Positions 1 through 22,257 are shown, counted from the first letter of the stretch. The stretch is 22,257 nt of DNA from a virus (IMGVR_UViG_3300028553_000189:1-22257), one strand, 5' to 3'. Numbers and translations: made by a program. Notes: a model not told the origin generated them from the letters alone.

Positions 1-2
1 TG

Positions 3-188
3 GCATTTAGATGGTTTAGAGAGAAGTATAAAATAAGATTTATTATCCAATCAAGTATGTCAGATTTAGGTGAGTATTTTAAAGTAATATTTCCTAATGG
101 CGAACAAAGAAATGTAAGTTATAATACCCCCGAAGCGGCTGAACTTGAATGTTTAAAAAAATTAATTGAAATCGTTAAAAACCAATAA
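3..188 (+). CDS. C-terminal part of a small uncharacterised phage protein (5' end outside window)
   Basis: An open frame enters from the left edge and runs 61 codons to a TAA at 186-188. The visible peptide starts AFRWFREKYKIRF and ends ECLKKLIEIVKNQ. From memory, this combination (an FRWFREKY stretch, then an 'EAELECLKKLIEIVK' tail) is a recurring uncharacterised small protein in Bacteroidota phages and prophages; I do not know its function. The next gene starts 1 nt after its stop (TAA-T-ATG), so the two are probably translationally coupled. The true start lies upstream of the window. Confidence 0.6.
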   Translation, partial: AFRWFREKYKIRFIIQSSMSDLGEYFKVIFPNGEQRNVSYNTPEAAELECLKKLIEIVKNQ

Positions 189-189
189 T

Positions 190-468
190 ATGAACATACC
201 AACAGCAGAAGAATTTGTAATGAAAGGTCATCTTCGGGTAGAAGATGATGAACAAAAAGATAGTTTAGCTAAGTCTCATATTGATTTTGCTAAACTTCAT
301 GTAGAAGCAGCTTTGAAAGAAGCATTTTTAAGTAGCGAAATGAGAGTTTCAGAAAATGATACTAATGAATATCCTAGTTTTGTCAGTAATTATGATGATG
401 GGTATGTAACAATTACAGTTAGTAAAGATTCAATATTAAACGCTTATCCACTAGAAAACATAATATAA
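190..468 (+). CDS. Small hypothetical phage protein, 92 aa
   Basis: The chosen start is ATG at 190 (MNIPTAEEFVMKGH). A longer reading from a TTG at 166 would overlap the preceding gene by 23 nt and add an unlikely lysine/asparagine-rich leader. The first ~30 residues are acidic and polar. The middle (HIDFAKLHVEAALKEAFL) reads as one amphipathic helix, and the tail is a short beta-rich segment (YVTITVSK). No catalytic motif, signal peptide or membrane segment is visible. The 'FAKLHVEAALKEA' helix is common in small Bacteroidota phage proteins of unknown role. It lies in a tight + strand run, 1 nt after the upstream stop and 1 nt before the next start. Confidence 0.6.
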   Translation: MNIPTAEEFVMKGHLRVEDDEQKDSLAKSHIDFAKLHVEAALKEAFLSSEMRVSENDTNEYPSFVSNYDDGYVTITVSKDSILNAYPLENII

Positions 469-469
469 T

Positions 470-1879
470 ATGAAAAACATACACGTATTACCAACAACTC
501 CAAATAACGAAACAGCTGGAGGTGTTTGGATAAAAGAAACAAGAGATTGGTGCAATATATACATTACTAATTCAGAAAAAATTAAAGAGGGTGATTATGT
601 TATTACACCAACAAATGATATTATACAATGGGCAAAAGTATTTCAACCTATTGGTAAAAAAATCATCCTAACAACAGACCAAGACTTAATCAAAGATGGT
701 GTACAAGAGATTGATGATGAGTTTTTAGAATGGTTTGTTAAGAATCCAAGTTGTGAAAAGGTTGAAGTTGGGTATGGATTTATCAGGCTCACTGAAACTG
801 ACAATGAAGGATATTGGGTTTCTATTCCTGATAAACAATTTGAAATGCAACAAGAAGAACCTAAACAAGAAATTGTAGGATATAGATTAAAACCTTCTAT
901 TGATAGAAAAATAATTGATGTAATATTAAAAAATAGCATGCCTATATGGAATCAAGAAGATAAATCAGTTTACTTTATTAGAGGTCATATTGCAGGTTCT
1001 TTAGTTGCAAAAATGAAAGAATTACAAGTTCTTGATTTGTGGTTCACACCTATTTATGAATTTGAAGAAGTTAAAAGTGATTGGTTAAAACAAAATCATT
1101 TGGACTATTATTATAAAGAAGGTATAATGAATAATGAACCTAAACAAGAACCCACGGAAGAAGCTAAGCAAAGAGCTAAAAACTATATGAGTTTAAAGGG
1201 AGCGTTAGAACCTAAACAAATTAAATGTTATTGTGGTCATACAACATATTGTGATTGTAGTCCTTTAGAAGAACCTAAAGATGTTGTGTTAGGATATAAA
1301 ACTTCTTTAGATGCTCAAATGTTAGATAAGATTGGATTAGAAGAACCTAAACAAGAAATTTGGAAAGATATTCCTAATTATGAAGGTTTATACCAAGTTA
1401 GTAACTTTGGTAATGTAAAGTCTTTAGAAAGATATGTGAAAGGTAAAGTTGAAGACAGGCTGCAAAAAGAAAACATACTTTCAAAAAGATTAGTTGGAGA
1501 TATAGGGAATCAATATTATGCTGTTACATTATGTAATAATAAAAATAGAAAACAAATTAAGATTAGTGTTTTAGTTGCAATGGCTTTTCTAAATCATATT
1601 CCAAATGGTTATGTTGGATTTACAGTTGACCACATAGATAATAATCCATTGAACAACAATGTGAATAATTTACAAGTAATAACTAAAAGAGAGAACTCTT
1701 CTAAAGATAGAAAAGGTATTTCAAAATATACAGGTGTCACTTTTAATAAAAAAACAAATAAATGGCGTTCTCAAATTTGGATTAATGGTCAAAATAAAAC
1801 ATTAGGTAGTTTTGATGATGAATTGGAAGCACACAGAGCATATCAGAAAGAGTTACAACAACATTTAAAATTACAGTAA
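470..1879 (+). CDS. Chimeric phage protein ending in a NUMOD4-HNH-AP2 homing-type endonuclease module
   Basis: This 469-aa protein appears to be built from unrelated pieces. Residues 1-125 resemble a small protein I recall from flavobacterial phages (IILTTDQDLIKDGVQ, then EFLEWFVKNPSCEKVEV). Residues ~130-290 are short modules separated by repeated EPKQ(E) linkers, including a Cys-rich knot (CYCGHTTYCDC). The last ~165 residues are an endonuclease: NUMOD4 (IWKDIPNYEGLYQVSNFG), HNH core (VDHIDNNPLNNNVNNLQ, with the following KRENSSKD), then an AP2-type DNA-binding domain (KYTGVTFNKKTNKWRSQI...GSFDDELEAHRAY). Enzymes of this class cut DNA and are usually free-standing or intron-borne; here the module is fused in frame to a resident phage protein. 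No splice elements are seen around it. Whether the fusion is active or still does the original job is unknown. Confidence 0.8.
   Translation: MKNIHVLPTTPNNETAGGVWIKETRDWCNIYITNSEKIKEGDYVITPTNDIIQWAKVFQPIGKKIILTTDQDLIKDGVQEIDDEFLEWFVKNPSCEKVEVGYGFIRLTETDNEGYWVSIPDKQFEMQQEEPKQEIVGYRLKPSIDRKIIDVILKNSMPIWNQEDKSVYFIRGHIAGSLVAKMKELQVLDLWFTPIYEFEEVKSDWLKQNHLDYYYKEGIMNNEPKQEPTEEAKQRAKNYMSLKGALEPKQIKCYCGHTTYCDCSPLEEPKDVVLGYKTSLDAQMLDKIGLEEPKQEIWKDIPNYEGLYQVSNFGNVKSLERYVKGKVEDRLQKENILSKRLVGDIGNQYYAVTLCNNKNRKQIKISVLVAMAFLNHIPNGYVGFTVDHIDNNPLNNNVNNLQVITKRENSSKDRKGISKYTGVTFNKKTNKWRSQIWINGQNKTLGSFDDELEAHRAYQKELQQHLKLQ
854..1359 (+). repeat. Five dispersed copies of a GAACCTAAACAAGAA-type repeat inside one gene
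   Basis: The sequence GAACCTAAACAAGAA or a shortened form occurs at about 854-873, 1136-1150, 1208-1219, 1268-1281 and 1340-1359. The first and last copies share 20 nt (GAAGAACCTAAACAAGAAAT). Each encodes the linker EPKQ(E) or EEPK at the border between two protein modules. The spacing is irregular, so this is not a tandem array. Short identical seams like these are plausible recombination points for shuffling modules. Confidence 0.7.
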
Positions 1880-1880
1880 A

Positions 1881-2138
1881 ATGAAAAATAAAGAAACACT
1901 TGAAGAAGTTGCCCATGAAATGCTTGTTGATTATGGAATTAAGTCAATAGGTCAAAGTATAGGAGTTTTAACAGTTAAAAAACTTATGGTGAATATGGCT
2001 AAATGGCAAGCTGAAAGAATGTATAGTGAGGAAGAAGTAATTAAAATAATCTATCAGTTACATTTAGAAATGCAAACAGATAAAGATTTTACCTTTATGA
2101 AAGTTGATGAATGGTTTGAACAATTAAAAAAGAAATAA
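1881..2138 (+). CDS. Small hypothetical phage protein, 85 aa (KETLEEVA...EWFEQLKKK type)
   Basis: It starts 1 nt after the stop of the chimeric endonuclease gene. The protein opens KETLEEVAHEMLVDYG, has a central MAKWQAERMYSEEEVI segment and ends VDEWFEQLKKK. As I recall, these pieces normally form the C-terminal part of a longer Bacteroidota phage protein whose N-terminal part is the type seen at the start of the preceding gene, joined through an EEPKQ-ETLEEA seam. The present gene may therefore be the displaced tail of that protein. It is predicted mostly helical, with no enzyme motif. Function unknown. Confidence 0.65.
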   Translation: MKNKETLEEVAHEMLVDYGIKSIGQSIGVLTVKKLMVNMAKWQAERMYSEEEVIKIIYQLHLEMQTDKDFTFMKVDEWFEQLKKK

Positions 2139-2140
2139 TT

Positions 2141-2419
2141 ATGACTTACATAGTAATGACAAATGGTAGAAATGGAATGTATTTATTTTTAGTTGACAGA
2201 AAAAAAATTAATAATAGATGGTGGTCTACAGATTGGAGCGATGCAATGCAATTTCAAAAAGAATCAGCTGCAAAGATTCAAGCTGCAAAACTAAAATACA
2301 AATCTCCAAGAGTTATATCAATAAATACTGCCATAGAACTATCAAAAGAAAACGATAAAAATTTTGATTACGAATCATTGGTACATCCATTTTCATCAGA
2401 TGGTTTAGGACAAGATTAA
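2141..2419 (+). CDS. Hypothetical protein, 92 aa
   Basis: ATG at 2141 follows the previous stop by 2 nt. The N-terminal half is beta-rich and aromatic (MTYIVMTNGRNGMYLF, then NNRWWSTDWSDAMQF). A helix rich in A and K follows (ESAAKIQAAKLKYK) and then an acidic tail. The pattern 'W..AMQF..ESAAKI.A' suggests a small fold that repeats in phage accessory proteins, but I cannot name a family. No membrane segment or metal-binding cluster is visible. Confidence 0.55.
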   Translation: MTYIVMTNGRNGMYLFLVDRKKINNRWWSTDWSDAMQFQKESAAKIQAAKLKYKSPRVISINTAIELSKENDKNFDYESLVHPFSSDGLGQD

Positions 2420-2439
2420 ATAATTTAAAAAGAAATAAG

Positions 2440-2691
2440 ATGAGTAAGCAAACAGCAGTAGAATGGTTAGTAGAACAACTTACAGAAGTTGACTATGGGT
2501 GCATAAATAAAACATTTTTACAAAACAATAACAGTTTAGCAGGGCATAAGCTAAGAGAACTTCTTGAACAAGCTAAAGAAATGGAAAAGGAGCAGATAAT
2601 TGATGCTTTTGATGAAGGAAATCCACATGCTTTTATTCCTAAAGATGGTCAACAATACTACAACGAAACCTATAAACAACAAACACCATGA
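2440..2691 (+). CDS. Small phage protein of the TAVEWLVEQL type, 83 aa
   Basis: The protein starts SKQTAVEWLVEQLTEVDYG, then has a helix LLEQAKEMEKEQIIDAFDEG and the tail GQQYYNETYKQQ. I recall this layout as very common in Bacteroidota phages and prophages: an 'AVEWL' N-terminus, an 'EQAKEMEKEQII.A' helix and a 'YYNETY' C-terminus. The family is uncharacterised. It is predicted helical and charged, with no signal peptide. Its stop overlaps the next start in an ATGA, which points to coupled translation. Confidence 0.6.
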   Translation: MSKQTAVEWLVEQLTEVDYGCINKTFLQNNNSLAGHKLRELLEQAKEMEKEQIIDAFDEGNPHAFIPKDGQQYYNETYKQQTP

Positions 2692-2897
2692 CACCAGAAG
2701 AAATAAAAAATGATATATCTGTAAAAAGCAGATTAGTTGGTATGACAGATGATCAACTTAAGATTATTGATTTTATAATTGATTATAGTTTTAAAGATAA
2801 AAAAGAAGTCTATACCAATGGTACTGTATTAGTTCCATTATTTAGAGTATTAGATGCTATTGCACAAAACGGAGAACAATATCAATCAAGTTGTTAA
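2688..2897 (+). CDS. Hypothetical protein, 69 aa
   Basis: The start ATG at 2688 overlaps the preceding TGA as ATGA. The protein is mainly helical (MTPEEIKNDISVKSRLVGMT, then QLKIIDFIIDYSF) and has no recognisable domain. Its first codons (ATGACACCAGAAGAAA) nearly match those of the gene at 2916 (ATGACACCAAAAGAAA), so the two may share a duplicated start region, though the rest of the proteins differ. Function unknown. Confidence 0.5.
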   Translation: MTPEEIKNDISVKSRLVGMTDDQLKIIDFIIDYSFKDKKEVYTNGTVLVPLFRVLDAIAQNGEQYQSSC

Positions 2898-2915
2898 CCT
2901 TTAATACCAAAACCA

Positions 2916-3134
2916 ATGACACCAAAAGAAAAAGCAAAGGAGTTAGTAGATAAAATGATATATGAAATAATGTATAATTGTCAACCTACATTATCAGGTA
3001 TGGTTGCTAAACAATGTGCATTAATAGCAGTAGATGAGATGATTCAATTTGCAAATAAAATGGACGGTGGCTTTTCTTTTAAAGATGAAATTATTTTCTT
3101 ACAAGAAGTGAAACAAGAAATAGAAAACCTTTAA
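2916..3134 (+). CDS. Small phage protein of the KEKAKELVDKM type, 72 aa
   Basis: The protein opens MTPKEKAKELVDKMIYEIM, continues AKQCALIAVDEMIQFA and ends EIIFLQEVKQEIENL. Small proteins with KEKAKELV, then 'CALIAVDE.I', then 'Y...VKQEIE.L' are frequent in Bacteroidota phages; the role is unknown. The layout suggests three amphipathic helices. It is 18 nt downstream of the previous stop and 12 nt upstream of the next start. Confidence 0.6.
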   Translation: MTPKEKAKELVDKMIYEIMYNCQPTLSGMVAKQCALIAVDEMIQFANKMDGGFSFKDEIIFLQEVKQEIENL

Positions 3135-3146
3135 CACTAAAGAGAA

Positions 3147-3776
3147 ATGAGTAAATTAAGAGAAAATAGTATATTCTATAAACCACCTACACGAGAAGAA
3201 CGCTTACAAGATTTGAAGTATTTCTTTTTATTTTGGAAAGGTAGAAAAAAAGGTATAATTCACACTCGTGATATTACCCTAGATGATTTTAGGTATATTT
3301 TCTTTCCTAAAGGATTTCATGAAATATATGGCTACTTAGGTTCTGTGCCTTATGAAGGTAATGGAGATGTTTTTAAGGCACTATATCCTTTGATCTTAGC
3401 CATGGACTACAAAGCCAAGCCTAAGTGGTGTCCTAGATGGTTTTTAAGGTTCTTGTATGTATTTGGTAGCGACAAATCTATTGTTAGAGTTAGAAACCGC
3501 AGATTACATAATCTACTTAGGAAGCTTACAAAAGGTATTACAATCTATGATTACAAAACTAAGTGGAATAATTATGATTTAAGAGTATCAATGGCTGCTC
3601 CACAAGACATTTGTGATCTAGAAGATGCTATTATCACTCATTTTTATGATCGAGGTTATAGACAAGAACTACTCAGTGATATTAGAGCTATAGAACCTGA
3701 TTTTAAATATGAGTGGTGGTCTACTCAAAAACTGCAAGACTACAATGATACGCTTAAACCAAAAGAAGATGAGTAA
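3147..3776 (+). CDS. Hypothetical protein, 209 aa
   Basis: ATG at 3147 is preceded by an A-rich stretch (AAAGAGAA). The protein is basic and aromatic with no motif I can assign (KPPTREERLQDLKYFFLF, RYIFFPKGFHEIYGYLG, KPKWCPRWFLRFLYVFG). Hydrophobic stretches are broken by charges, so a membrane protein is unlikely. It is the largest gene in the left-hand small-gene cluster apart from the endonuclease fusion. Its last codons (GATGAGTAA) contain the start of the next gene in an 8-nt overlap. Confidence 0.55.
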   Translation: MSKLRENSIFYKPPTREERLQDLKYFFLFWKGRKKGIIHTRDITLDDFRYIFFPKGFHEIYGYLGSVPYEGNGDVFKALYPLILAMDYKAKPKWCPRWFLRFLYVFGSDKSIVRVRNRRLHNLLRKLTKGITIYDYKTKWNNYDLRVSMAAPQDICDLEDAIITHFYDRGYRQELLSDIRAIEPDFKYEWWSTQKLQDYNDTLKPKEDE

Positions 3777-11565: not shown

Positions 11566-11938
11566 CTATGTTGAAAAGTTAGAGAACATATGTAAAATGC
11601 TAAATGGTCAAAAAGAAGACATAACTATCGCAATGTTTTCTTTAAAACAAGAACAAAAAAACTTACTAGAATTATTAGTCCTTTTAATAAAGCTTAGAGG
11701 TATTAAACTAGAATGTGACCAGGTAAATTTTAGTCTAATAGCACAAATTATGAATGACCAGCTGAGTATAAACAGTTATACTAAAGCTTTTCATTTAGTA
11801 TATGATGATGATTCTCTTTATCTATTGATGCATGAAACTATAAGAAATGCAACAACTAGAATTAATTATGAAATACTAAATAGTTGTTCAGATGTAAAAA
11901 AAGTCAAAATACAATTTCAAATCGTAGACAATGAATAG
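11549..11938 (+). CDS. Hypothetical protein, 129 aa
   Basis: The protein is helical in its first half with a coiled-coil-like region (MFSLKQEQKNLLELLVLLIK). A mixed second half follows (KAFHLVYDDDSLYLLMHETI) and the C-terminus is beta-rich (KKVKIQFQIVDNE). No family recognised. The gene overlaps its neighbour on each side: 17 nt upstream and 8 nt (ATGAATAG) with the metallopeptidase exon 1 downstream. That suggests translational coupling with the metallopeptidase. Confidence 0.55.
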   Translation: MTETNSYVEKLENICKMLNGQKEDITIAMFSLKQEQKNLLELLVLLIKLRGIKLECDQVNFSLIAQIMNDQLSINSYTKAFHLVYDDDSLYLLMHETIRNATTRINYEILNSCSDVKKVKIQFQIVDNE

Positions 11939-12148
11939 ACATGAAACACTAGCAAAGGCTGTTAAAAACCTTATGCTAAAAGAACCATTTTATGGCATAT
12001 TTGCTCTTAGTTTAAACAAAGAGTTTTCTGATGTTGTACCCACAGCAGGTGTAGCAAAAATGGGTATTAACTACAAGTTAGCTATTAACCCAACATTCTG
12101 GGATAGCTTGGAAATGAATGTAAAAGAAGGAGTACTTCAACACGAGCT
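11931..12148 (+). CDS. Zinc metallopeptidase/VWA protein, exon 1 of 3 (spliced product 395 aa)
   Basis: The gene is a join of 11931-12148, 13253-14033 and 14997-15185. The spliced protein fits the VWA-like metallopeptidase family (DUF2201 type). Its zinc motif HELLH is at residues 71-75 with a following His80. The VWA domain has MIDAS DTSGS at 277-281, Thr334 and Asp358. Exon 1 encodes residues 1-72 and two bases of codon 73, stopping inside HEXXH. Unspliced reading would end at 12185 with a broken motif. Proteins of this family pair with MoxR AAA+ ATPases, one of which is encoded immediately downstream. Substrate unknown. Exon 1 starts in an 8-nt overlap with the upstream gene. Confidence 0.85.
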
Positions 12149-12331
12149 CAATGTAAGGGCTCCTCGTATAGGAATATACGTGTAAAATATCTTAAATTGA
12201 CGGGAACCGCCTTAGAGCTTTGTGCACCAAACATGAGTAGTGATACATTATGTGGCCAGAATAATTACCTGGGTATGGTAAAAGAAACAAAGATTGGCAA
12301 ATCCGCAGCGAAATTTTTTGGTTTTATCAAT

Positions 12332-12339
12332 TATTTTTG
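12332..12339 (+). promoter_or_regulatory. Weak promoter-like TATTTTTG before the intron 1 endonuclease gene
   Basis: TATTTTTG fits TAnnTTTG and lies 26 nt before the ATG at 12366. No -33 element is found at the right distance: the nearest TTTG, at 12317-12320, is only 11 nt upstream. The motif occurs by chance fairly often in DNA this AT-rich, so this is a weak call. Confidence 0.25.
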
Positions 12340-12365
12340 GTATATTATAACATATATATTTACAT

Positions 12366-13202
12366 ATGCTAAACCCAGAAATAAAAGAACAGATTGTTAA
12401 GGAGTATGTTACCTTTAAAAAATCAGCATATACGATAGCTAAGATGTTAAACATCAATATAAAATCCGTATATAGAACGCTAAAAGCAAAAGGAAAATCT
12501 TCAAGAACAATGTCACAAGCAGCAATGAGATACACAGACAATACATCTTTTTTCAACAATATAAATTGTGAAAAAAAAGCTTATTGGTTGGGTGTATTAT
12601 ATGCTGACGGTAATGTTTCAACTATTAAAAAAGGTTCGGGACAAGTATTTTTAACATCTTCAGACAAAGAATGGGTAGAAAGTTTTTTAAAAGATTTAGA
12701 CTCAAACAGAATGTGTCATAAAGAAACACATAACAAGTTTAAATCTGTCATATGGAAAGCTCAAATTACCTCAAATGAAATGCACCAAGCTTTAGTAAAG
12801 TTAGGTTGCGTTCCTAAAAAGTCTTTAGTTATAAGATTGCCTTTATTGTCTTCAAGACTTATGCCTCACTTTATCCGAGGATATTTTGATGGAGACGGTA
12901 GTGTAGGTGCTTATAAAAACATTCAATCTTCTGAATGGAAAATACTCAAAAGTAGTATCTGTTCGGGCTCTGAAGAGTTTATAAAAGATATTCTTAAAAT
13001 ATTACCTGTGAAAAACAAAAAATATAGTTATAAAGGAGTCTACATATTACAGCTTTCTTTACATGATACACTGAGATTATACAATTACATGTATAACGAC
13101 GCTACAGTATACTTAGAGAGAAAGAAAAAAGTATTTGATGACTATTTTAAAATCTATATTCCAAAAAAGACGTTCAACGACTACAATAGATTACCCAAAT
13201 AA
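12366..13202 (+). CDS. LAGLIDADG-family homing endonuclease of intron 1, 278 aa
   Basis: This protein would cut intron-free copies of the metallopeptidase gene so that repair copies the intron in. Residues ~1-45 form a helix-turn-helix (VTFKKSAYTIAKMLNINIKS). Two LAGLIDADG-like motifs follow: KKAYWLGVLYADGNVS and HFIRGYFDGDGSVG, each ending in the catalytic acidic residue. It is related to the intron 2 enzyme, which lacks the N-terminal helix-turn-helix. The last ~11 residues are encoded by the intron's R element, so its translation must compete with RNA folding. The DOD-type motifs also occur in inteins, but no protein-splicing blocks are present and the ORF is free-standing in an intron RNA. 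Confidence 0.88.
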   Translation: MLNPEIKEQIVKEYVTFKKSAYTIAKMLNINIKSVYRTLKAKGKSSRTMSQAAMRYTDNTSFFNNINCEKKAYWLGVLYADGNVSTIKKGSGQVFLTSSDKEWVESFLKDLDSNRMCHKETHNKFKSVIWKAQITSNEMHQALVKLGCVPKKSLVIRLPLLSSRLMPHFIRGYFDGDGSVGAYKNIQSSEWKILKSSICSGSEEFIKDILKILPVKNKKYSYKGVYILQLSLHDTLRLYNYMYNDATVYLERKKKVFDDYFKIYIPKKTFNDYNRLPK

Positions 13203-13252
13203 GGGTAAAGGTATAGTCTGATCTCATATGAAAGTATGAGTTAACACAAATG

Positions 13253-14033
13253 ATTACACATAGCATTCTTTCATCTCTATTTGCAAGATGCATATAATGA
13301 TAAAGAACTATTTAATGTGGCTGCTGACATGGAGGTAAATCAGTACATTGAACGTGAGAATCTTCCAGAAGAGGGCATTTTCATAGAAAATTATCGAGAG
13401 CTTAATCTTGATAAGAAAGCCGGTAGTGATTACTATTACAAAGCTCTTCAAAAAGCTCAAGATCAAAAAGATAAAAAGGGCACATGTGGTTGTGGAGCAA
13501 TGGATGATCTTCTTGACAAAATTAGAAATGGTGAACCATTACCTTGTGATCATCCTAACTGGAAAGATTTTGAAGGATTAACAGATGCTGAAAAGCAACT
13601 ACTCAAAAGGCAAACTACACATTTAATTAAAGATGTACAAAATGCTCTAAAAGGTAGAGGTACAATGCCTGGTGAAATTGCAGAGCTTATTGAAATGATG
13701 AAAGATATACCGCCAAAATTTGACTGGCGCCAATATCTTCGTCGTTTTACTGGTGGCTCCATTATTCCTTACACTAAAAAACTAAGACGTAAATACAACA
13801 AACGCTATGAAGACAATCCAGGTTTAAAGATTAAATACCACAAACATCTATTAGTAGCTATTGACACATCTGGTTCTGTTAATACAAGTGAGCTCAAAGA
13901 ATTTGTAAACGAGCTTGTTCACATTCACAAAACCGGTGGTCAAATTACTGTTGCACAAACAGACACCGCTATTTCTAAAATGGAAAAATTTAATCCTCGA
14001 GAGATTGAATATAAAATTCATGGTCGTGGAGGT
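13253..14033 (+). CDS. Zinc metallopeptidase/VWA protein, exon 2 of 3
   Basis: Exon 2 encodes the last base of codon 73 through residue 333. It starts LHIAFFHLYLQDAYNDKELF, completing HELLH, then NVAADMEVNQYIE, where the acidic residues near 98-100 are candidate third zinc ligands. A Cys/Asp-rich spacer follows (GTCGCGAMDD), then a linker and the VWA fold with HLLVAIDTSGSVNTSEL (MIDAS DxSxS, residues 277-281). It ends at HGRGG; the next residue, Thr334 of the MIDAS, comes from exon 3. Without splicing the frame would run on to a stop at 14066. A gene finder would call this piece from a TTG at 13281 and miss the first nine codons. Confidence 0.88.
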
Positions 14034-14996
14034 AAAATTGGTGCCTCCCTATACAGTAATGTATAGAAAAAAATGCTGTAAATTGCGGGAAGTTGCTTAG
14101 AGCTTTCATTACCAACTATATATGGTGACATGATATAGGGCTGAAGTAATTACTCAGATATGGTAAAAAGATGAAAGATTGCATAATCCGCAGCAAAATC
14201 TCTTGTATATAAATATAAATTTCGTATATTGGTTGTATAACAATACCACAATGAAACGAATTTATAATGTAAACGATGATTATTTTGAGACTATTAATTG
14301 TGAACAAAAAGCTTACTGGTTAGGTTTTTTGTGTGCTGATGGCTGGATTAACAAACGTTCTACTGGACAAGATCGTTTAGTTTTAGATATTTCAATAAAA
14401 GACAAAGAACACTTATATATATATAAGAAAGATCTTAGTTTTGAGGGAAATATTAAAGACTACATAATAAAGTCTGGAGAATTTAAAGGTTATCAGCATA
14501 GTTCTGTATCAATAACTTCACAAAAACTAGTTGATTCATTATCAAAATATGGTTGTACACCAAATAAATCATTGACTCTTACATTTCCAGATATACCTAT
14601 AAAATGGATAAACCATTTTGTTAGAGGATATTTTGATGGAGATGGTAGTGTATTTATTTCAAATGAAAAACATTGGAGAAGTAAAAAAATTTCACCGGTA
14701 ATTCATTATAGATTTATTGGAACTAAAAAGTTTCTTAACGATATAAATACACATATTGGTCTTGATGGTTATATTTCACAACCTAAAGGTAAAGCTTACG
14801 AACTAGCTTATAAAAGGAACAAAAAGTTAATTCCTTTTTATATTTACCTGTATACAAATGCTACTGTTTATTTAAAACGTAAACAAGAAATTTTTTCTTC
14901 TCATATACAAGAGAGATGTTCAGAGACTATAATCAGCCAACTTAATAAAGTTGAAGGGATAGTCCGAGTATAAATGAAAGTTTATACAGAAAATCG
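14034..14996 (+). ncRNA. Group I intron 2 (at the MIDAS threonine of the VWA domain)
   Basis: Self-splicing intron of 963 nt. P1: exon GGAGGT (14028-14033) pairs with GCCTCC (14043-14048), with U14033.G14043 at the splice site. Core elements: P (about 14080-14092, AATTGCGGGAAG), Q (14183-14195, TAATCCGCAGC), R (14918-14934, GTTCAGAGACTATAATC), S (14953-14968, GAAGGGATAGTCCGAG); P7 GACTA/TAGTC is intact. P4 is TGCGG with CCGCA. The P9 hairpin is GTATAAA-TGAAAG-TTTATAC (14968-14987). The terminal G is 14996. The exon junction reads HGRGG|TDFQPV. The endonuclease gene lies between Q and R. Confidence 0.92.
14251..14973 (+). CDS. LAGLIDADG-family homing endonuclease of intron 2, 240 aa
   Basis: The chosen start is ATG at 14251 (MKRIYNVNDDYFETINCEQK). 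A TTG at 14179 would start inside the Q element of the intron and is unlikely. Two LAGLIDADG-like motifs are present: EQKAYWLGFLCADGWIN and HFVRGYFDGDGSVF. The C-terminal residues (after about residue 222) are encoded by R, P3', P8 and S of the intron, so the stop codon at 14971-14973 lies just past S. The enzyme is a shorter relative of the intron 1 protein. It is expected to cut near the GRGG|TD junction of intron-free alleles. Confidence 0.87.
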   Translation: MKRIYNVNDDYFETINCEQKAYWLGFLCADGWINKRSTGQDRLVLDISIKDKEHLYIYKKDLSFEGNIKDYIIKSGEFKGYQHSSVSITSQKLVDSLSKYGCTPNKSLTLTFPDIPIKWINHFVRGYFDGDGSVFISNEKHWRSKKISPVIHYRFIGTKKFLNDINTHIGLDGYISQPKGKAYELAYKRNKKLIPFYIYLYTNATVYLKRKQEIFSSHIQERCSETIISQLNKVEGIVRV

Positions 14997-15185
14997 ACAG
15001 ATTTTCAACCAGTAATAGATTATTATAGAGAAAACCTTAAAAAGTACACAGCGCTAATCTTCTTTACTGATGGTGAAGCGCCAACCCCACAAGATGCAGC
15101 AGGTAAAATCTTATGGGTGTTATCATCAAGTTCAAGAGACTGTGACCATTTACCTGGACAAACTGTTAAACTAGAAACAAAATAA
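14997..15185 (+). CDS. Zinc metallopeptidase/VWA protein, exon 3 of 3
   Basis: Exon 3 encodes residues 334-395. It begins TDFQPVIDYYRENLKKYTAL, where Thr334 is the MIDAS threonine, continues IFFTDGEAP (Asp358 as the third MIDAS acidic residue) and ends at TAA 15183-15185. It has no start codon of its own and is too short for most gene finders, so it is easily lost from an annotation. The MoxR gene starts 11 nt after its stop. The exons total 1188 nt including the stop, a whole number of codons. Confidence 0.85.
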   Translation, partial: TDFQPVIDYYRENLKKYTALIFFTDGEAPTPQDAAGKILWVLSSSSRDCDHLPGQTVKLETK

Positions 15186-15196
15186 TTTAAACAAAC

Positions 15197-15327
15197 ATGA
15201 ACAACGTAGTAAAACTAAATCTTGACGAGCTAAAAGACTTTTTACGTCACATTGTAGTAAATAATCAACATATTCAAAAAGAAGGAAAGATTCCTGTAGC
15301 AGTAAATATTGAAGGCGAAGCGGGGCT
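15197..15327 (+). CDS. MoxR-type AAA+ ATPase, exon 1 of 3 (spliced product 391 aa)
   Basis: The gene is a join of 15197-15327, 16415-16709 and 17758-18507. MoxR ATPases act as chaperone-like remodelling machines, typically with a VWA-domain partner encoded next door, as here. Exon 1 encodes residues 1-43 plus two bases of codon 44, ending in NIEGEAG. Splicing gives Walker A GEAGLGKT (residues 40-47). Unspliced, the frame stops at 15338-15340 after 47 codons, so exon 1 alone looks like an unimportant tiny ORF. The start ATG at 15197 follows an A-rich leader (TTTAAACAAAC), 11 nt after the metallopeptidase stop. Confidence 0.85.
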
Positions 15328-15345
15328 TAATTCAAAATAAATGTA

Positions 15346-15353
15346 TATCTTTG
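15346..15353 (+). promoter_or_regulatory. Promoter element TATCTTTG directly before the intron 3 endonuclease gene
   Basis: TATCTTTG matches TAnnTTTG and ends only 4 nt before the ATG at 15358 (TATCTTTGTAACATG). Transcription from it would begin at or near the start codon, giving a nearly leaderless message. The intron 4 endonuclease gene has the same arrangement (TATCTTTGTAATATG), which raises confidence. No good -33 element is visible here. Confidence 0.5.
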
Positions 15354-15357
15354 TAAC

Positions 15358-16128
15358 ATGAAGAAGTTACTTTCGGAGTGTTTACACAAAGACTTAAACC
15401 AAAAGTGTGGTATTTACAAAATTACTTGTAATGAACACAGTTATATTGGAAACAGTATTAATATTTATTATAGGCTAAAAAGACATATATCTGATTTGTT
15501 AAAAAACAAACATGCAAATAGATATATGCAAAATGCTTTTAATAAATATGGAAAGGATAGTTTTGAGTTTGATATAATAGAAGAATGTAGTAAAACAGTT
15601 TTAATTAAAACTGAAGCTTATTATATACAATCTATGAATCCAGATTTAAACCTAATTCAAGATCCTGTTGTAGTTATACATAGTAATGAAACATTACTTA
15701 AAATTTCTACAACATTGAAAGAAGCATATGCTTCTAAAAGAATTAAGAATCCTATATCAAAAACTGTTCATCAATATAATATAAATGGTTTTTACCTTAA
15801 ATCTTATGAATCTTGTACTGAAGCAGAAAAACAATTAGACTTGCCAAAAGGTAAAGTTTCAAAAGTTGCTTCAGGAAAAGGTTTTTCTTGCGGAAACTAT
15901 AGATGGTGTTATGAAAAAAAAATTAAACTAGAAAAATCCAATATTACACATAAAGGAAATAAGATAGTTTATGCATATAATCATAACAACATATTAGTTG
16001 GAGAATGGAAAAGTATTAATGATGTATGTCATCACTTAAAACTAAGTCATTCAGCAATGTCAATAAGAATAAAAAAAGGTAATTACTATAACGGTTTAAA
16101 ATATACATTTAACCCAGGTTCCGGGTAA
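15358..16128 (+). CDS. GIY-YIG homing endonuclease of intron 3, 256 aa
   Basis: The GIY-YIG domain spans residues ~18-100: CGIYKITCNEHSYIGNSINI (GIY...YIG), RLKRH with the catalytic Arg, FNKYGKDSFEFDIIEECS, and KTEAYYI with the metal-binding Glu. Two NUMOD1-like DNA-binding segments follow: HQYNINGFYLKSYESCTEAE with YRWCYEKK, and VYAYNHNNILVGEWKSIND. The last codons (NPGSG) carry the intron's guide sequence for P1, so the protein's end and the ribozyme's substrate-recognition site share DNA. It is expected to promote spread of intron 3 into MoxR alleles without it. It is a diverged relative of the intron 4 enzyme. Confidence 0.88.
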   Translation: MKKLLSECLHKDLNQKCGIYKITCNEHSYIGNSINIYYRLKRHISDLLKNKHANRYMQNAFNKYGKDSFEFDIIEECSKTVLIKTEAYYIQSMNPDLNLIQDPVVVIHSNETLLKISTTLKEAYASKRIKNPISKTVHQYNINGFYLKSYESCTEAEKQLDLPKGKVSKVASGKGFSCGNYRWCYEKKIKLEKSNITHKGNKIVYAYNHNNILVGEWKSINDVCHHLKLSHSAMSIRIKKGNYYNGLKYTFNPGSG

Positions 16129-16414
16129 AAATTGGGTGAATTGCTGGAAGTTCCTAAAGCTTTGTTAGCTACAACATAACTGGAAACGGTAAGTGTGAAT
16201 GCTTGAAAATAACAAAGATTTCCTAATGGATAATCAGCAGCCAAGTCTAGACCTAAATGGTCTGGAAAGGTTCAACGACTAGGTATTGAAACTATAGAAA
16301 TATAGAATATAATATACCCAAGAGTGCCCAACACCAAATAATTGGTGAAGATATAGTCTGAACTATAGTGAAAGCTATAGAAACAAGGATAAAGAGCCTT
16401 GTGATAACAAAATG

Positions 16415-16709
16415 TGGTAAGACATCATCTTTACTGCAGTTAGCTGAAGAGCTAAATATGCAAATTGTAAAATTATCACTATCTCAGATTGAAGAGCTTG
16501 GTGACCTTGTTGGTTTTCCAGTTAAAGAATTTGAGATGGTAAAAGATGACGGTAAAAAAGTTTGGATTCAGGATGCAGTAATGCCTATGTATATTCAAGC
16601 AAAATACAAACCCACGGGAGAAAAGCGTATGACTCACGCTGCTCCAGAGTGGATTCAAGGTCGCGGTGAAGGCGGCTTCTTAATACTCGATGATTACACG
16701 AGGGCGGAT
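16415..16709 (+). CDS. MoxR-type AAA+ ATPase, exon 2 of 3
   Basis: Exon 2 encodes the last base of codon 44 through residue 142. It starts GKTSSLLQLAEELNMQIVKL, the second half of Walker A and the following helix. It continues SLSQIEELGDLVGFPVKEFE, and ends GGFLILDDYTRAD with Walker B LILDD at residues 133-137. The next intron follows Asp142 directly; its first three bases are TAA, so unspliced RNA terminates translation at once. A gene finder may extend this exon 5' to an ATG at 16368 that lies in the P9 region of intron 3; that start is not real. Confidence 0.87.
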
Positions 16710-16731
16710 TAACAAAATATGCAGTCTAGTA

Positions 16732-16761
16732 TTGTTTGTGTGAATGTTTCTATTATCTTTG
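16732..16761 (+). promoter_or_regulatory. Promoter inside intron 4 driving the GIY-YIG gene
   Basis: TTG at 16732-16734, a 19-nt spacer, then TATCTTTG at 16754-16761 fit the Bacteroidota consensus TTG/TTTG-N19-21-TAnnTTTG. The -7 element ends 4 nt before the ATG at 16766, so a near-leaderless transcript is predicted. The same element and spacing occur before the intron 3 endonuclease gene. Confidence 0.6.
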
Positions 16762-16765
16762 TAAT

Positions 16766-17515
16766 ATGAAAACATTAACCACAGACAGCATCAAGATTGC
16801 ATTAAATCGTGTAGGAATCTATAAAATTAAAATTAGTGATAAAGAATACATTGGTAGTTCTTGTAATATTGGTAGTCGTTTAAAACATCATTTGTGGTCT
16901 CTTCAACATTTAAAACATCATAACAGAACAATGCAAAACTTATTCAATAAGTATGGTATTAATAATATCTACTTTGAGATTATAGAAGAATGTTCTGAAG
17001 AAGTTCTTATTGAAAGAGAAGCTTTTTATATTGAAACACTTAATCCTTATATAAATCATATACTTGACCCTCAAAGTTTAGTAAGAGATGACGTATACAG
17101 AAAAAGAATAAGTGAATCTAGAAAAAAAGCTTATGCAAATGGTTTAAAACCACATAATCTTAAAGCAGTTCATAAGTATTCGCTTGATAAAGGTGAGTAT
17201 TTAGAAAGTTTTGAGTCTCTTACAGCTGCTGCTAAGTCTATTAATGCTAAGAGTATTAATAGTATAAAAGCCGTATGTAATGGAAAACAAACTTCTGCGG
17301 GTGGTTATATTTGGTCTTATAATAAAGTTTCTTTAGTATTTTCTAAAGATAAAAAATATAAGCTGCAGCCAGTATTACAATATACTATTGATGATATTTT
17401 TATCAAGAAATGGGAATCTATAAAACAAGCAAGTAAAGAACTTGGTATCTCTAATATAAATAGAGCAATATCTAAGAACTTAACTGCAGGTGGTTATAGA
17501 TGGAAAAAAGCATAA
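16766..17515 (+). CDS. GIY-YIG homing endonuclease of intron 4, 249 aa
   Basis: The chosen start is ATG at 16766 (MKTLTTDSIKIALNRVG). The frame is open back to a TTG at 16736, but that stretch is the promoter. The GIY-YIG domain: VGIYKIKISDKEYIGSSCNI, RLKHH with Arg, FNKYGINNIYFEIIEECSE, EREAFYIETLNPY with the metal-binding Glu. Two NUMOD1-like modules follow: VHKYSLDKGEYLESFESLTA with GGYIWSY, and VLQYTIDDIFIKKWESIKQ with AGGYRWKK. The stop (17513-17515) falls 8 nt before the P1 guide, so unlike intron 3 this ORF does not overlap it. It is a diverged relative of the intron 3 enzyme. Confidence 0.88.
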   Translation: MKTLTTDSIKIALNRVGIYKIKISDKEYIGSSCNIGSRLKHHLWSLQHLKHHNRTMQNLFNKYGINNIYFEIIEECSEEVLIEREAFYIETLNPYINHILDPQSLVRDDVYRKRISESRKKAYANGLKPHNLKAVHKYSLDKGEYLESFESLTAAAKSINAKSINSIKAVCNGKQTSAGGYIWSYNKVSLVFSKDKKYKLQPVLQYTIDDIFIKKWESIKQASKELGISNINRAISKNLTAGGYRWKKA

Positions 17516-17757
17516 AGTGGTAGGTTCGCCATAAATCATGTGAACTCAGGGGATATCCAGAGATGGGCAATCCTGAGCCAAGCCTTATAGGGATATAAGG
17601 AAGGTGCAACGACTAGTGTATGGAGTCTAGAACAGACAGTAAAACACCACGAGCGCATGACACATATAAATATGTGAAGATATAGTCTGAACTGTGTGTA
17701 TAATCTAAAACAAAGACACAGAACTACAAGATAAAGAACTTGTAGGATAACATAATG

Positions 17758-18507
17758 CACCGCTTTATGCAAGCTTGTATGGAGATCATTGACCGGCAAG
17801 AGTATATTTCTTGGCGTCTACCAAAGAACTGGCATGTTGTTCTTACAACCAACCCAGACAATGGTAACTATCAAGTTACATCTCTTGACAATGCTCAAAA
17901 GACTCGATTCATCACTGTTGAAACTAAATTTGACATTGAAGTATGGGCTCGCTGGGCAGAGAAAGTAAACATTGATACTCGTTGTATCAACTTTCTATTG
18001 TTAAATCCAGAGTTAGTAACTGACAAACTAAATCCTCGTAGTATTACTACATTCTTCAACTCAATCTCATGTCTTGAATCATTTGATGATTCATTACCGC
18101 TAATTCAAATGATTGGTGAAGGTTCTGTTGGTAACGAATTTGCTAGCATGTTTAGCATGTTTATTAACAACAAACTGGATAAGTTGCTTTCTCCAAAAGA
18201 AATCTTTACAAAAGATATGGGTTATATATTAGGTGCTATTCGCTCTAATGTTGGTCGCGGCGATAATTACCGCGCAGACATTGCTAGTGTAATGGGTACT
18301 CGTATTGTAAACTATTCTTTGATGAAAGCAGAAGAAGGCCCTATCTCTCCAGATATGATTTCAAGAATCATAGCTCTAACAACAGATGAGGAACTCTTCA
18401 CAAAGGATATTAAGTATTTCATTGTTCGCGCGCTAATTGCTGGCAACAAACAGAAATTCCAGAAAATCCTTACTAATCCAGAATTAGTGAAGATGACTGC
18501 AAGCTAA
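17758..18507 (+). CDS. MoxR-type AAA+ ATPase, exon 3 of 3
   Basis: Exon 3 encodes residues 143-391. It starts HRFMQACMEIIDRQEYISW, continues NWHVVLTTNPDNGNYQVTSL (sensor I region: TTNPDNG), then DNAQKTRFITVETKFD, where QKTRF carries the arginine expected in the MoxR 'A..DRF' position. The helical lid follows (NPELVTDKLNPRSITTFFN, where the R of PRS is a sensor II candidate). A gene finder may take ATG at 17755 as the start because the intron's last bases happen to form ATG. The gene ends the primase-to-MoxR transcript: a strong terminator follows 60 nt later. Confidence 0.87.
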   Translation, partial: HRFMQACMEIIDRQEYISWRLPKNWHVVLTTNPDNGNYQVTSLDNAQKTRFITVETKFDIEVWARWAEKVNIDTRCINFLLLNPELVTDKLNPRSITTFFNSISCLESFDDSLPLIQMIGEGSVGNEFASMFSMFINNKLDKLLSPKEIFTKDMGYILGAIRSNVGRGDNYRADIASVMGTRIVNYSLMKAEEGPISPDMISRIIALTTDEELFTKDIKYFIVRALIAGNKQKFQKILTNPELVKMTAS

Positions 18508-19851: not shown

Positions 19852-20888
19852 TGGAATTTGACTCACTAAAACTAGAAGGAGATTTTTACTCAAAAGATTT
19901 TTACTTTAGCTATTCATCACTGAATAAGCTACTATATTCGCCAGCGGCGTTCTATAAACATTACGTGTTACAAGAAAGAGAAGATAAAGTAGAGTCTTAT
20001 CTTATTACTGGTAAAGTTATTCATACTTTGATTCTTGATAAAGGACGATTTGATGAGTTCTTTGTTGTGGTACCCACAAATTTACCCGGCGACAGCATTC
20101 GTAAAATTGTAGACCACATCTTTAAGAACCACTTTTTGATACAAGACAACTATGACAAAAACTTAGAAGACTTTGATACTGAGATACTTGCATACATGCA
20201 AGAAATTAATTTGTACCAAAGTTTGGTTGATGACAAAAAAGATGTAACTTTGACTGGAGATGCAAAGCGTCTCGAGAAGATTCTCAACGACCAATCCAAA
20301 CAATACTTTTCATACCTCAAATCAAGCTTAGGTAAAGATTTAATCGACGAGGAGACATTGAAAATTTGTGAAGAGGCAGTGGTGGCTGTAAAAGAAAACA
20401 AGAAAGCTTGGAGTCTTTTAAACACCGGAGCACAGTTTGAGTTACAAGAAGTTTACAATGAGATGTTTATATCTAGGGATTATAGGGCCCAGTATCCTTT
20501 TGGCTTAAAAGGTATACTGGACAACATAACCATAGACCATGCTAATAAGACAATCACAATCTGTGATCTTAAGACTAGCAGTAAAACACTCTCAGAGTTT
20601 CCGCAAACAGTAGAGTTCTACAATTATTGGTTACAAGCAGCAATATACACCCGCATCGTATTTGATGAGTTTATTCTCAGCAAACCAGATGGTGAAAAAT
20701 GGAAGATTAACTTTCATTTTGTAGTGGTTGATAAGTTCAACAATTGCTATGTGTTTGATGTCCAAGAAGAAACTCTTATTAGTTGGCAGAACCGGTTAAC
20801 CGACGTACTTAAACAAGCAAGTTATCATTACTCTAATCGCTCATTTAATCTCCCCTATGAGTTCTTAGTTGGTAATGTAAAACTTTAA
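19851..20888 (+). CDS. PD-(D/E)XK exonuclease (RecE/Cas4-like, PDDEXK_12 type), 345 aa
   Basis: The nuclease signature is complete. SYSSLNKLLYSPAAFYKHYV is the N-terminal helix that opens this family. GKVIHTLILD supplies the GxxxH motif. FGLKGILDNITID supplies the conserved Asp, TITICDLKTSSKT the (D/E)xK pair, and YNYWLQAAIYTRI the Q..Y helix. Such enzymes digest DNA ends and often feed an annealing recombinase such as Sak4 and the phage SSB, both present in this window. No four-cysteine iron-sulfur cluster of Cas4 is visible, so a RecE-like or YqaJ-adjacent exonuclease is more likely than Cas4. Its start overlaps the upstream stop as TAATG. Confidence 0.82.
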   Translation: MEFDSLKLEGDFYSKDFYFSYSSLNKLLYSPAAFYKHYVLQEREDKVESYLITGKVIHTLILDKGRFDEFFVVVPTNLPGDSIRKIVDHIFKNHFLIQDNYDKNLEDFDTEILAYMQEINLYQSLVDDKKDVTLTGDAKRLEKILNDQSKQYFSYLKSSLGKDLIDEETLKICEEAVVAVKENKKAWSLLNTGAQFELQEVYNEMFISRDYRAQYPFGLKGILDNITIDHANKTITICDLKTSSKTLSEFPQTVEFYNYWLQAAIYTRIVFDEFILSKPDGEKWKINFHFVVVDKFNNCYVFDVQEETLISWQNRLTDVLKQASYHYSNRSFNLPYEFLVGNVKL

Positions 20889-20893
20889 CCCCC

Positions 20894-21460
20894 ATGGTAA
20901 TTGAATCTTTGTACACGGATTATTTCCAAAAATCTAAGGCATTTATGTATCCTGTCTTAGGTGTAAAAAGAGGCAGTAGTGTAACACCCATAGAGACTTA
21001 TATGTCTTGGGTGGGACACTACTCTCTCGAAGACATGCGTTTGATATGTAACTATCATATGCGTGAGGATATAGATTTCATTAACTTTGAAAAGTTTACC
21101 CTTAGAAGTTCACCTTATTATGAAAGTTTTCACTACTTAAGTGATACATCTGGACTTTACATATTTGATATGTCAAAGTTTAAGAGTGATTGGTTCTACT
21201 TACTAGCTGGTAAATATTCAAAGTTTAGTGACAAACACAAAAAAATTATCAGTACCTTTTTTGGCAACAACAGTTCCAGTTCTGTGTACATAGATAGTTT
21301 TCTTAACCCCAAAAAGTATTTCAATATCTACGCTAAACTACTAGATGAGCCTAAAAAGCTTTTAGAAAGCGTTGGAGAACTTTGTTCTATTCCAGATTTA
21401 GAGAAGGAGACATTTGTAGCAACAGTTAAAGATTTGGATAGAAGAAGTATTATTGGTTAA
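20894..21460 (+). CDS. Hypothetical protein, 188 aa
   Basis: ATG at 20894 lies 5 nt after the nuclease stop. The protein starts MVIESLYTDYFQKSKAFMYP, with a VKRGSSVTPIETYMSW segment, then a mixed strand-helix region (YHMREDIDFINFEKFTL, GLYIFDMSKFKSDWFYLLAG) and a helical tail. The 'YP.LG..RGS...P..TY..W' opening is a pattern I recall from uncharacterised phage proteins near replication genes. No catalytic motif; function unknown. Confidence 0.6.
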   Translation: MVIESLYTDYFQKSKAFMYPVLGVKRGSSVTPIETYMSWVGHYSLEDMRLICNYHMREDIDFINFEKFTLRSSPYYESFHYLSDTSGLYIFDMSKFKSDWFYLLAGKYSKFSDKHKKIISTFFGNNSSSSVYIDSFLNPKKYFNIYAKLLDEPKKLLESVGELCSIPDLEKETFVATVKDLDRRSIIG

Positions 21461-21978: not shown

Positions 21979-22257
21979 ATGGCATATGGATATGTAATGG
22001 ATTATGAAACTATGCAAAATCTTTTCGTAGCTGTATTCGAGGATATCAATACTGAACAACAGAATATCTTCGTTATACACAAACTACGTAATGACTTAAC
22101 TAAGTTTCTAGAGTTCCTAGATGGTAACATCAAAAAAGATGAACGTCATGTGTCATTCAATGGTCTAGCATTTGACGCTCAGATAACAGAATATTTTCTT
22201 AAACATGCTGATAGACTCTTAGAGATTTCAGCTGATGCTGTTGCTAGGGAAATATAT
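21979..22257 (+). CDS. N-terminus of a DNA polymerase or 3'-5' exonuclease (cut by window edge)
   Basis: 93 codons are visible. The exonuclease motif I appears as YVMDYETMQNLFVAVFED (Asp8 and Glu10), and motif II as SFNGLAFDAQITEYFL (the N-G-x-x-F-D pattern). This spacing at the extreme N-terminus is typical of the proofreading domain of family B (or A) phage DNA polymerases. With a complete replication set just upstream and no polymerase elsewhere in the window, the phage replicative polymerase is the best guess. A stand-alone DnaQ-like exonuclease cannot be ruled out because the polymerase domain lies outside the window. Confidence 0.7.
   Translation, partial: MAYGYVMDYETMQNLFVAVFEDINTEQQNIFVIHKLRNDLTKFLEFLDGNIKKDERHVSFNGLAFDAQITEYFLKHADRLLEISADAVAREIY

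Follow-up and report, generated by a model that had tools for sequence, protein, structure and literature searches.

Group I introns that carry homing endonuclease genes (HEGs) have been described in the DNA polymerase genes of phages SPO1 and Bastille, in nrdE of Twort and in T4 (PMC3984707, PMC2988022; for Bastillevirinae, PMC11878797), and it is established that homing endonucleases choose functionally critical codons (PMC3984707). In the Delta and Zeta crAss-like phages, several group I introns can reside in a single gene, with the major capsid protein gene divided into five fragments, and up to 14 in a single genome (PMC7886860). Conserved-codon targeting and multi-intron phage genes are, in short, already known. 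In jumbo phages of group 2.2, a MoxR ATPase adjoins a VWA protein with an N-terminal metallopeptidase domain; a role in virion assembly has been proposed, and the ATV tail assembly system is cited there for the MoxR-vWA pair (PMC7824862). Here we describe a 22,257-base virus record from IMG/VR (IMGVR_UViG_3300028553_000189:1-22257; the window, meaning the whole stretch) in which a metallopeptidase/VWA gene and the adjacent MoxR-like ATPase gene are each interrupted by two group I introns. With a probability of roughly 0.93, these are four mobile introns, each with its own HEG, that are spreading by homing through a clade of phages of about 110-120 kb.

The introns of SPO1, Bastille, Twort and T4 share with those of the window a group I core, HEGs in peripheral loops, a U-G pair in P1, patchy presence, and insertion at functionally critical codons of conserved protein-coding genes. 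HEG-less forms and free-standing HEGs nearby are a further likeness to known phage introns (collaborative homing, PMC3984707). Unlike in those cases, the targets here are a metallopeptidase/VWA protein and a MoxR ATPase, which are not among the target genes named in the passages of those sources that we consulted, and two endonuclease classes are split by gene. Multiple introns per gene and per genome, in core genes, are also found in the Delta and Zeta crAss-like phages. There, however, introns load many core genes, whereas in the present clade most genomes have no introns, and those that occur are mainly concentrated in two partner genes. The pair has the same composition as in the jumbo phages, but it is intron-bearing and sits amid replication and recombination genes of a large clade of 110-120-kb phages, where a part in virion assembly would be putative. 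Open-licence full-text literature yielded no phage report that combines a group I intron with MoxR, and the VWA-MoxR pair as an intron hub appears to be unreported.

The metallopeptidase/VWA gene (11931-15185; this and all other features lie on the plus strand) has exons at 11931-12148, 13253-14033 and 14997-15185. The spliced protein of 395 residues matches PF13203 (putative metallopeptidase, E=2.6e-22), PF09967 (VWA, E=7e-16) and phrog_1314 (E=2e-64). Downstream begins the MoxR-like AAA ATPase gene (15197-18507; exons 15197-15327, 16415-16709 and 17758-18507), whose spliced product of 391 residues matches phrog_1297 (E=6.5e-33). Assignment of this protein to the MoxR subfamily is of moderate confidence because the protein of the window, taken by itself, matches no Pfam family at 0.001; members of its family match AAA_5 (best E=8.6e-6) and AAA_3 (5e-4), as well as chains of Midasin, a dynein-related AAA protein. 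The locus thus has the defining arrangement of a MoxR-VWA pair, an ATPase of MoxR/dynein type next to a VWA protein. The initial annotation had placed the splice junctions at 12148/13253, 14033/14997, 15327/16415 and 16709/17758. Joining at these positions restores both frames exactly, and intron-free orthologues (in L030, with 79% amino acid identity for VWA and 91% for MoxR) join at identical bases. As relatives such as L030 have both genes uninterrupted, the joins are not merely convenient. Each insert is preceded by T, ends in G and leaves an exact in-frame junction. The wider junction search required this T and G, so the junctions independent of that rule are the window's four; for four relatives (L041, L070, L189 and L142) the automatic junctions were wrong, and these were either placed by hand or left out.

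Both genes are prone to misreading. Gene callers will miss or fragment them, and in PHROG (phrog_1314) and many phage records the VWA protein goes by the name 'HNH endonuclease'. This label looks wrong and may derive from endonucleases encoded within introns. In L017, L028, L067 and L202, charged and repetitive in-frame inserts of about 75-100 residues lie near MoxR residues 82-93. We considered inserts near residues 82-94 (in these four and in L168) as introns and rejected them: they are coding, and those checked have no S motif.

Introns 3 (15328-16414, 1087 nt) and 4 (16710-17757, 1048 nt), both in the MoxR gene, exceed the gathering score of the Rfam model RF00028 (50 bits), with 84.2 bits at 16088-16380 and 71.8 bits at 17471-17708. 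Their open reading frames (ORFs) encode homing endonucleases with GIY-YIG and NUMOD1 domains (intron 3, 15358-16128, PF01541 E=7e-9; intron 4, 16736-17515, PF01541 E=1.2e-5 and PF07453 E=1e-8) that are 39% identical in amino acid sequence. In both introns the HEG occupies the P1 loop. The guide of intron 3, GGUUCC at 16117-16122, is encoded by the last codons of the ORF, and that of intron 4, GUUCGCC, lies at 17524-17530; both guides, and the P1 U-G pairs of these two introns, were read by eye. The GIY-YIG families, for which dN/dS was computed, are under purifying selection (0.10-0.37 for the intron 3 family and 0.09-0.56 for that of intron 4).

Introns 1 (12149-13252, 1104 nt) and 2 (14034-14996, 963 nt), in the VWA gene, instead carry LAGLIDADG_3 homing endonuclease ORFs (12366-13202, PF14528 E=6.5e-10 and phrog_4645 E=2.5e-49; 14179-14973, PF14528 E=6e-8 and phrog_4645 E=2.6e-52) with 34% amino acid identity to each other. 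An Rfam search had been proposed as a check on all four introns; it recovered introns 3 and 4, gave a weak score for intron 1 (17.9 bits) and did not report intron 2. Introns 1 and 2 fall under the Rfam cut-off because the LAGLIDADG ORF splits the core between Q and R; in intron 1, the 3' end of the ORF overlaps the R element at 13173. Rfam alone is therefore too insensitive (it also missed the polymerase intron described below), and we used split-gene comparison and a covariance model of our own. An alignment of 11 VWA-gene-type cores, with the ORF-bearing loop removed and some rows closely related to one another, has 71 consensus pairs, of which 42 show compensatory change, and 14 of 779 cells are broken. 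Covariation in P3 can be read by eye (e.g. AUCU/AGAU, GCUG/CAGC, GUUU/AAAC), and the U-G pair at the 5' splice site is present in all 11 rows; in intron 1, exon GAGCU pairs with intron GGCUC. Our model was trained on ten 5' halves of LAGLIDADG-type introns, introns 1 and 2 included, so their scores of 194 and 191 bits are high by construction. A conserved catalytic core (P3-P9, with P, Q, R and S elements) with covariation, a P1 U-G pair at the 5' splice site and a terminal G, present in all four, identify these elements as group I introns.

Directly ahead of the ATG of both GIY-YIG genes stands the box TATCTTTG (15345-15357 and 16754-16765), and the likely start of the intron 4 ORF is the ATG that follows it at 16766. 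The box is retained in most relatives of both GIY-YIG intron families. Its similarity to TAnnTTTG, the -7 promoter box of Bacteroidota, hints that the host belongs to this phylum and that the P1 loop contains a promoter for the endonuclease; a genome-wide test found no enrichment of the Bacteroidota-type promoter motif.

The insertion sites coincide with catalytic motifs, each as the initial annotation had described it. Intron 1 splits HELLH within its first Leu codon (HEL|LH), intron 2 stands just before the MIDAS Thr of the VWA domain (GRGG|T), intron 3 interrupts the Walker A motif GEAGLGKT at its Leu codon, and intron 4 is found five residues past the Walker B DD (RAD|H). The annotation had also cited the known preference of homing introns for conserved codons, and the DNA agrees: in intron-free relatives, 20-nt conservation at sites 1 to 4 ranks at the 98th, 88th, 88th and 70th percentile of the respective gene, and jointly the four sites are more conserved than random sites (permutation p=0.0045). 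Relatives use three further sites in the pair (VWA nt 294, MoxR nt 420 and about MoxR nt 460), for a total of seven.

Each intron is faithful to its site. In endonuclease-directed scans, relatives of the intron 1 HEG at 50% amino acid identity or more were all at VWA nt 218, those of intron 2 (at least 62%) at VWA nt 999, those of intron 3 (at least 55%) at MoxR nt 131 and those of intron 4 (at least 49%) at MoxR nt 426. Sequence divergence shows horizontal spread at Walker A, where the introns of 12 other phages are 87-91% identical to that of the window while their exon flanks (60 nt on either side) are 67-78% identical; over 120 phage pairs, mean identity is 88.4% for the intron and 72.5% for the exon. 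The phages had already diverged when these introns passed between them. Presence is patchy: intron 4 is missing in G002 and carried by G003, although MoxR proteins are 97-99% identical. The intron 2 site is occupied in six relatives (L139-L143 and L185) and also in L004, where the HEG has been lost, and L070-L072 carry a 303-nt form of intron 1 without a HEG. Free-standing GIY-YIG genes lie between the VWA and MoxR genes in L192-L194 and L205, and L157 and L199 have free-standing LAGLIDADG genes beside VWA. Empty sites, mobile introns, HEG-less introns and free-standing HEGs are all found; thus, all expected states of the homing cycle occur around one pair of genes. Same-site occupancy with horizontal spread, together with intact LAGLIDADG_3 and GIY-YIG domains (the latter in families under purifying selection), marks these introns as mobile. 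One pair with seven sites and empty, HEG-less and HEG-bearing alleles offers a natural experiment on homing.

Our model is that the endonucleases cut intronless alleles of the two adjacent genes and that, when two phages infect one cell, the break would be repaired with a copy of the intron. Every lineage of endonuclease keeps to one site, and the motifs at these sites retain similar DNA in otherwise diverged phages. The intron RNA should self-splice, leaving the host protein unaffected. The most likely reason why the pair is struck more often than its neighbours is that all these phages have it, that it is well conserved and that it may be expressed early.

How unevenly the introns are distributed was approached with three counts, which point in one direction. 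In ten near-complete genomes, chosen via their VWA or MoxR exons and scanned whole by split-gene comparison and RNA models, five of seven introns lie in the pair, which makes up 2.1% of the sequence; four of those five belong to one genome. Scans of intron-free genomes with two RNA models gave no additional introns. An exon-directed census of 39 locus clusters counted 15 introns in 87 kb of the pair against 4 in 228 kb of eleven neighbour genes, a tenfold rate (p=5e-6, assuming independent events). A second, larger census used one gene to select the sample and the other for scoring, with partial overlap between the sample halves. It found interruptions in 1 of 40 clusters for MoxR and in 3 of 49 for VWA; about 390 copies of neighbour genes were scored, and none had an intron. 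Across the clade at large, few copies of the pair are thus occupied, and the choice of relatives affects the tally. Two scans each matched more than 570 related loci. The pair is not the exclusive target. Clade relatives have further introns in Sak4, UDG, two helicases and one radical-SAM gene. The initial annotation had noted no intron in other genes, which holds within the window; yet the DNA polymerase B gene that begins in it (21980-22257, start at about 21980, the remainder past the window end) has an intron beyond that end. This is seen in G001, a 109-kb phage contig with 99.84% identity to the window across 19.1 kb that serves as a stand-in near-complete sister genome. The polB gene of G001 (phrog_1252; exons 20121-21308 and 22409-23215) holds a fifth intron of 1106 nt with a GIY-YIG-like ORF between motif B and motif C, where the Rfam model reported none; its exon parts are 86% and 80% identical in amino acid sequence to those of the intron-free G002, and another intron-free polB copy is L119:6279-8267. 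A 'split' structural gene in G006 was considered as an intron case and rejected, the parts being neighbouring paralogues.

Could splicing act as a switch, such that the protease/VWA protein and the ATPase are produced only when it is efficient? Four introns in two partner genes, each holding stops that without splicing would cut both proteins short at catalytic motifs, would suit such control, which the initial annotation had raised. However, neither gene is interrupted in most relatives, of two nearly identical phages one may have an intron that the other lacks, the combination changes from lineage to lineage, the introns travel horizontally, and HEG-bearing, HEG-less and empty states coexist. 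Because presence is patchy and the intron set differs per lineage, control by splicing is unsupported and we regard it as very improbable; the pattern is one of homing rather than conserved splicing control. Decayed genes, inteins or assembly artefacts could also account for genes interrupted by stops and frame changes, but this scarcely merits belief: the window, L006 and L007 have one and the same intron structure in three assemblies, the endonuclease ORFs are intact, with purifying selection on the GIY-YIG families, the junctions are exact and in frame, and the RNA covaries. Inteins in particular are excluded, since the inserts are out of frame with the exons and hold stops and separate-frame ORFs.

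Whether the pair is a true hotspot is a closer question. Insertion could be random among conserved phage genes, with the pair prominent since the window and our searches began there, and the introns in polB, Sak4, UDG, the helicases and radical SAM fit this idea. Several points weigh against homing to a favoured pair. Counting only distinct sites, the contrast with the neighbours drops to a modest p=0.017; the events in the census are not independent, as introns at one site share ancestry; and among nearer relatives the per-copy intron rate of Sak4 is at least as high (3 of 9), though 0 of 15 in the second census. In the intron 4 family, exon and intron distances are strongly correlated (Spearman 0.83) and the gap in identity is smaller than for the Walker A intron (79.5% for the intron versus 72% for the exon), so that spread at this site is likely older and partly vertical. 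Splicing and endonuclease cleavage of the four introns are, in addition, predictions from sequence. On the other side, random insertion does not readily give five of seven introns in 2.1% of the sequence of genomes scanned whole, no extra introns under two RNA models, and introns confined to the pair in a census that separates ascertainment from scoring. We therefore consider the absence of a hotspot unlikely, if the most serious of the alternatives, and our data support the special standing first proposed for this machine, with counts that owe something to shared ancestry and with other genes of the clade also interrupted. Homing to a favoured pair would place the metallopeptidase/VWA-MoxR machine on the short list of phage genes favoured by mobile introns, and suggests that it is hard for these phages to lose. 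One could also envision the pair as a battlefield, in which endonucleases, stacked at as many as seven sites, cleave the two genes in co-infecting rivals and the introns shield the phage that carries them; we offer this as a speculation that is probably wrong.

A megablast comparison of the window with cultured phages returned only short matches to HEGs and small ORFs, and a scan of genome contigs for a host returned only five distant MoxR homologues, in mixed metagenome-assembled genomes. Positions 1-3162 of the window do not align to G001 except in blocks of 30-120 bases (e.g. 1998-2045, 2421-2468 and 2566-2685). Short blocks of this kind recur in changed order across many phages of the clade, one of 44 bases being common to Flavobacterium phages, and the segment looks like a rapidly shuffled small-gene region. 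Within it, at 470-1879, a 469-residue ORF encodes a C-terminal homing-type endonuclease (NUMOD4-HNH-AP2) preceded by repeated EPKQE segments.

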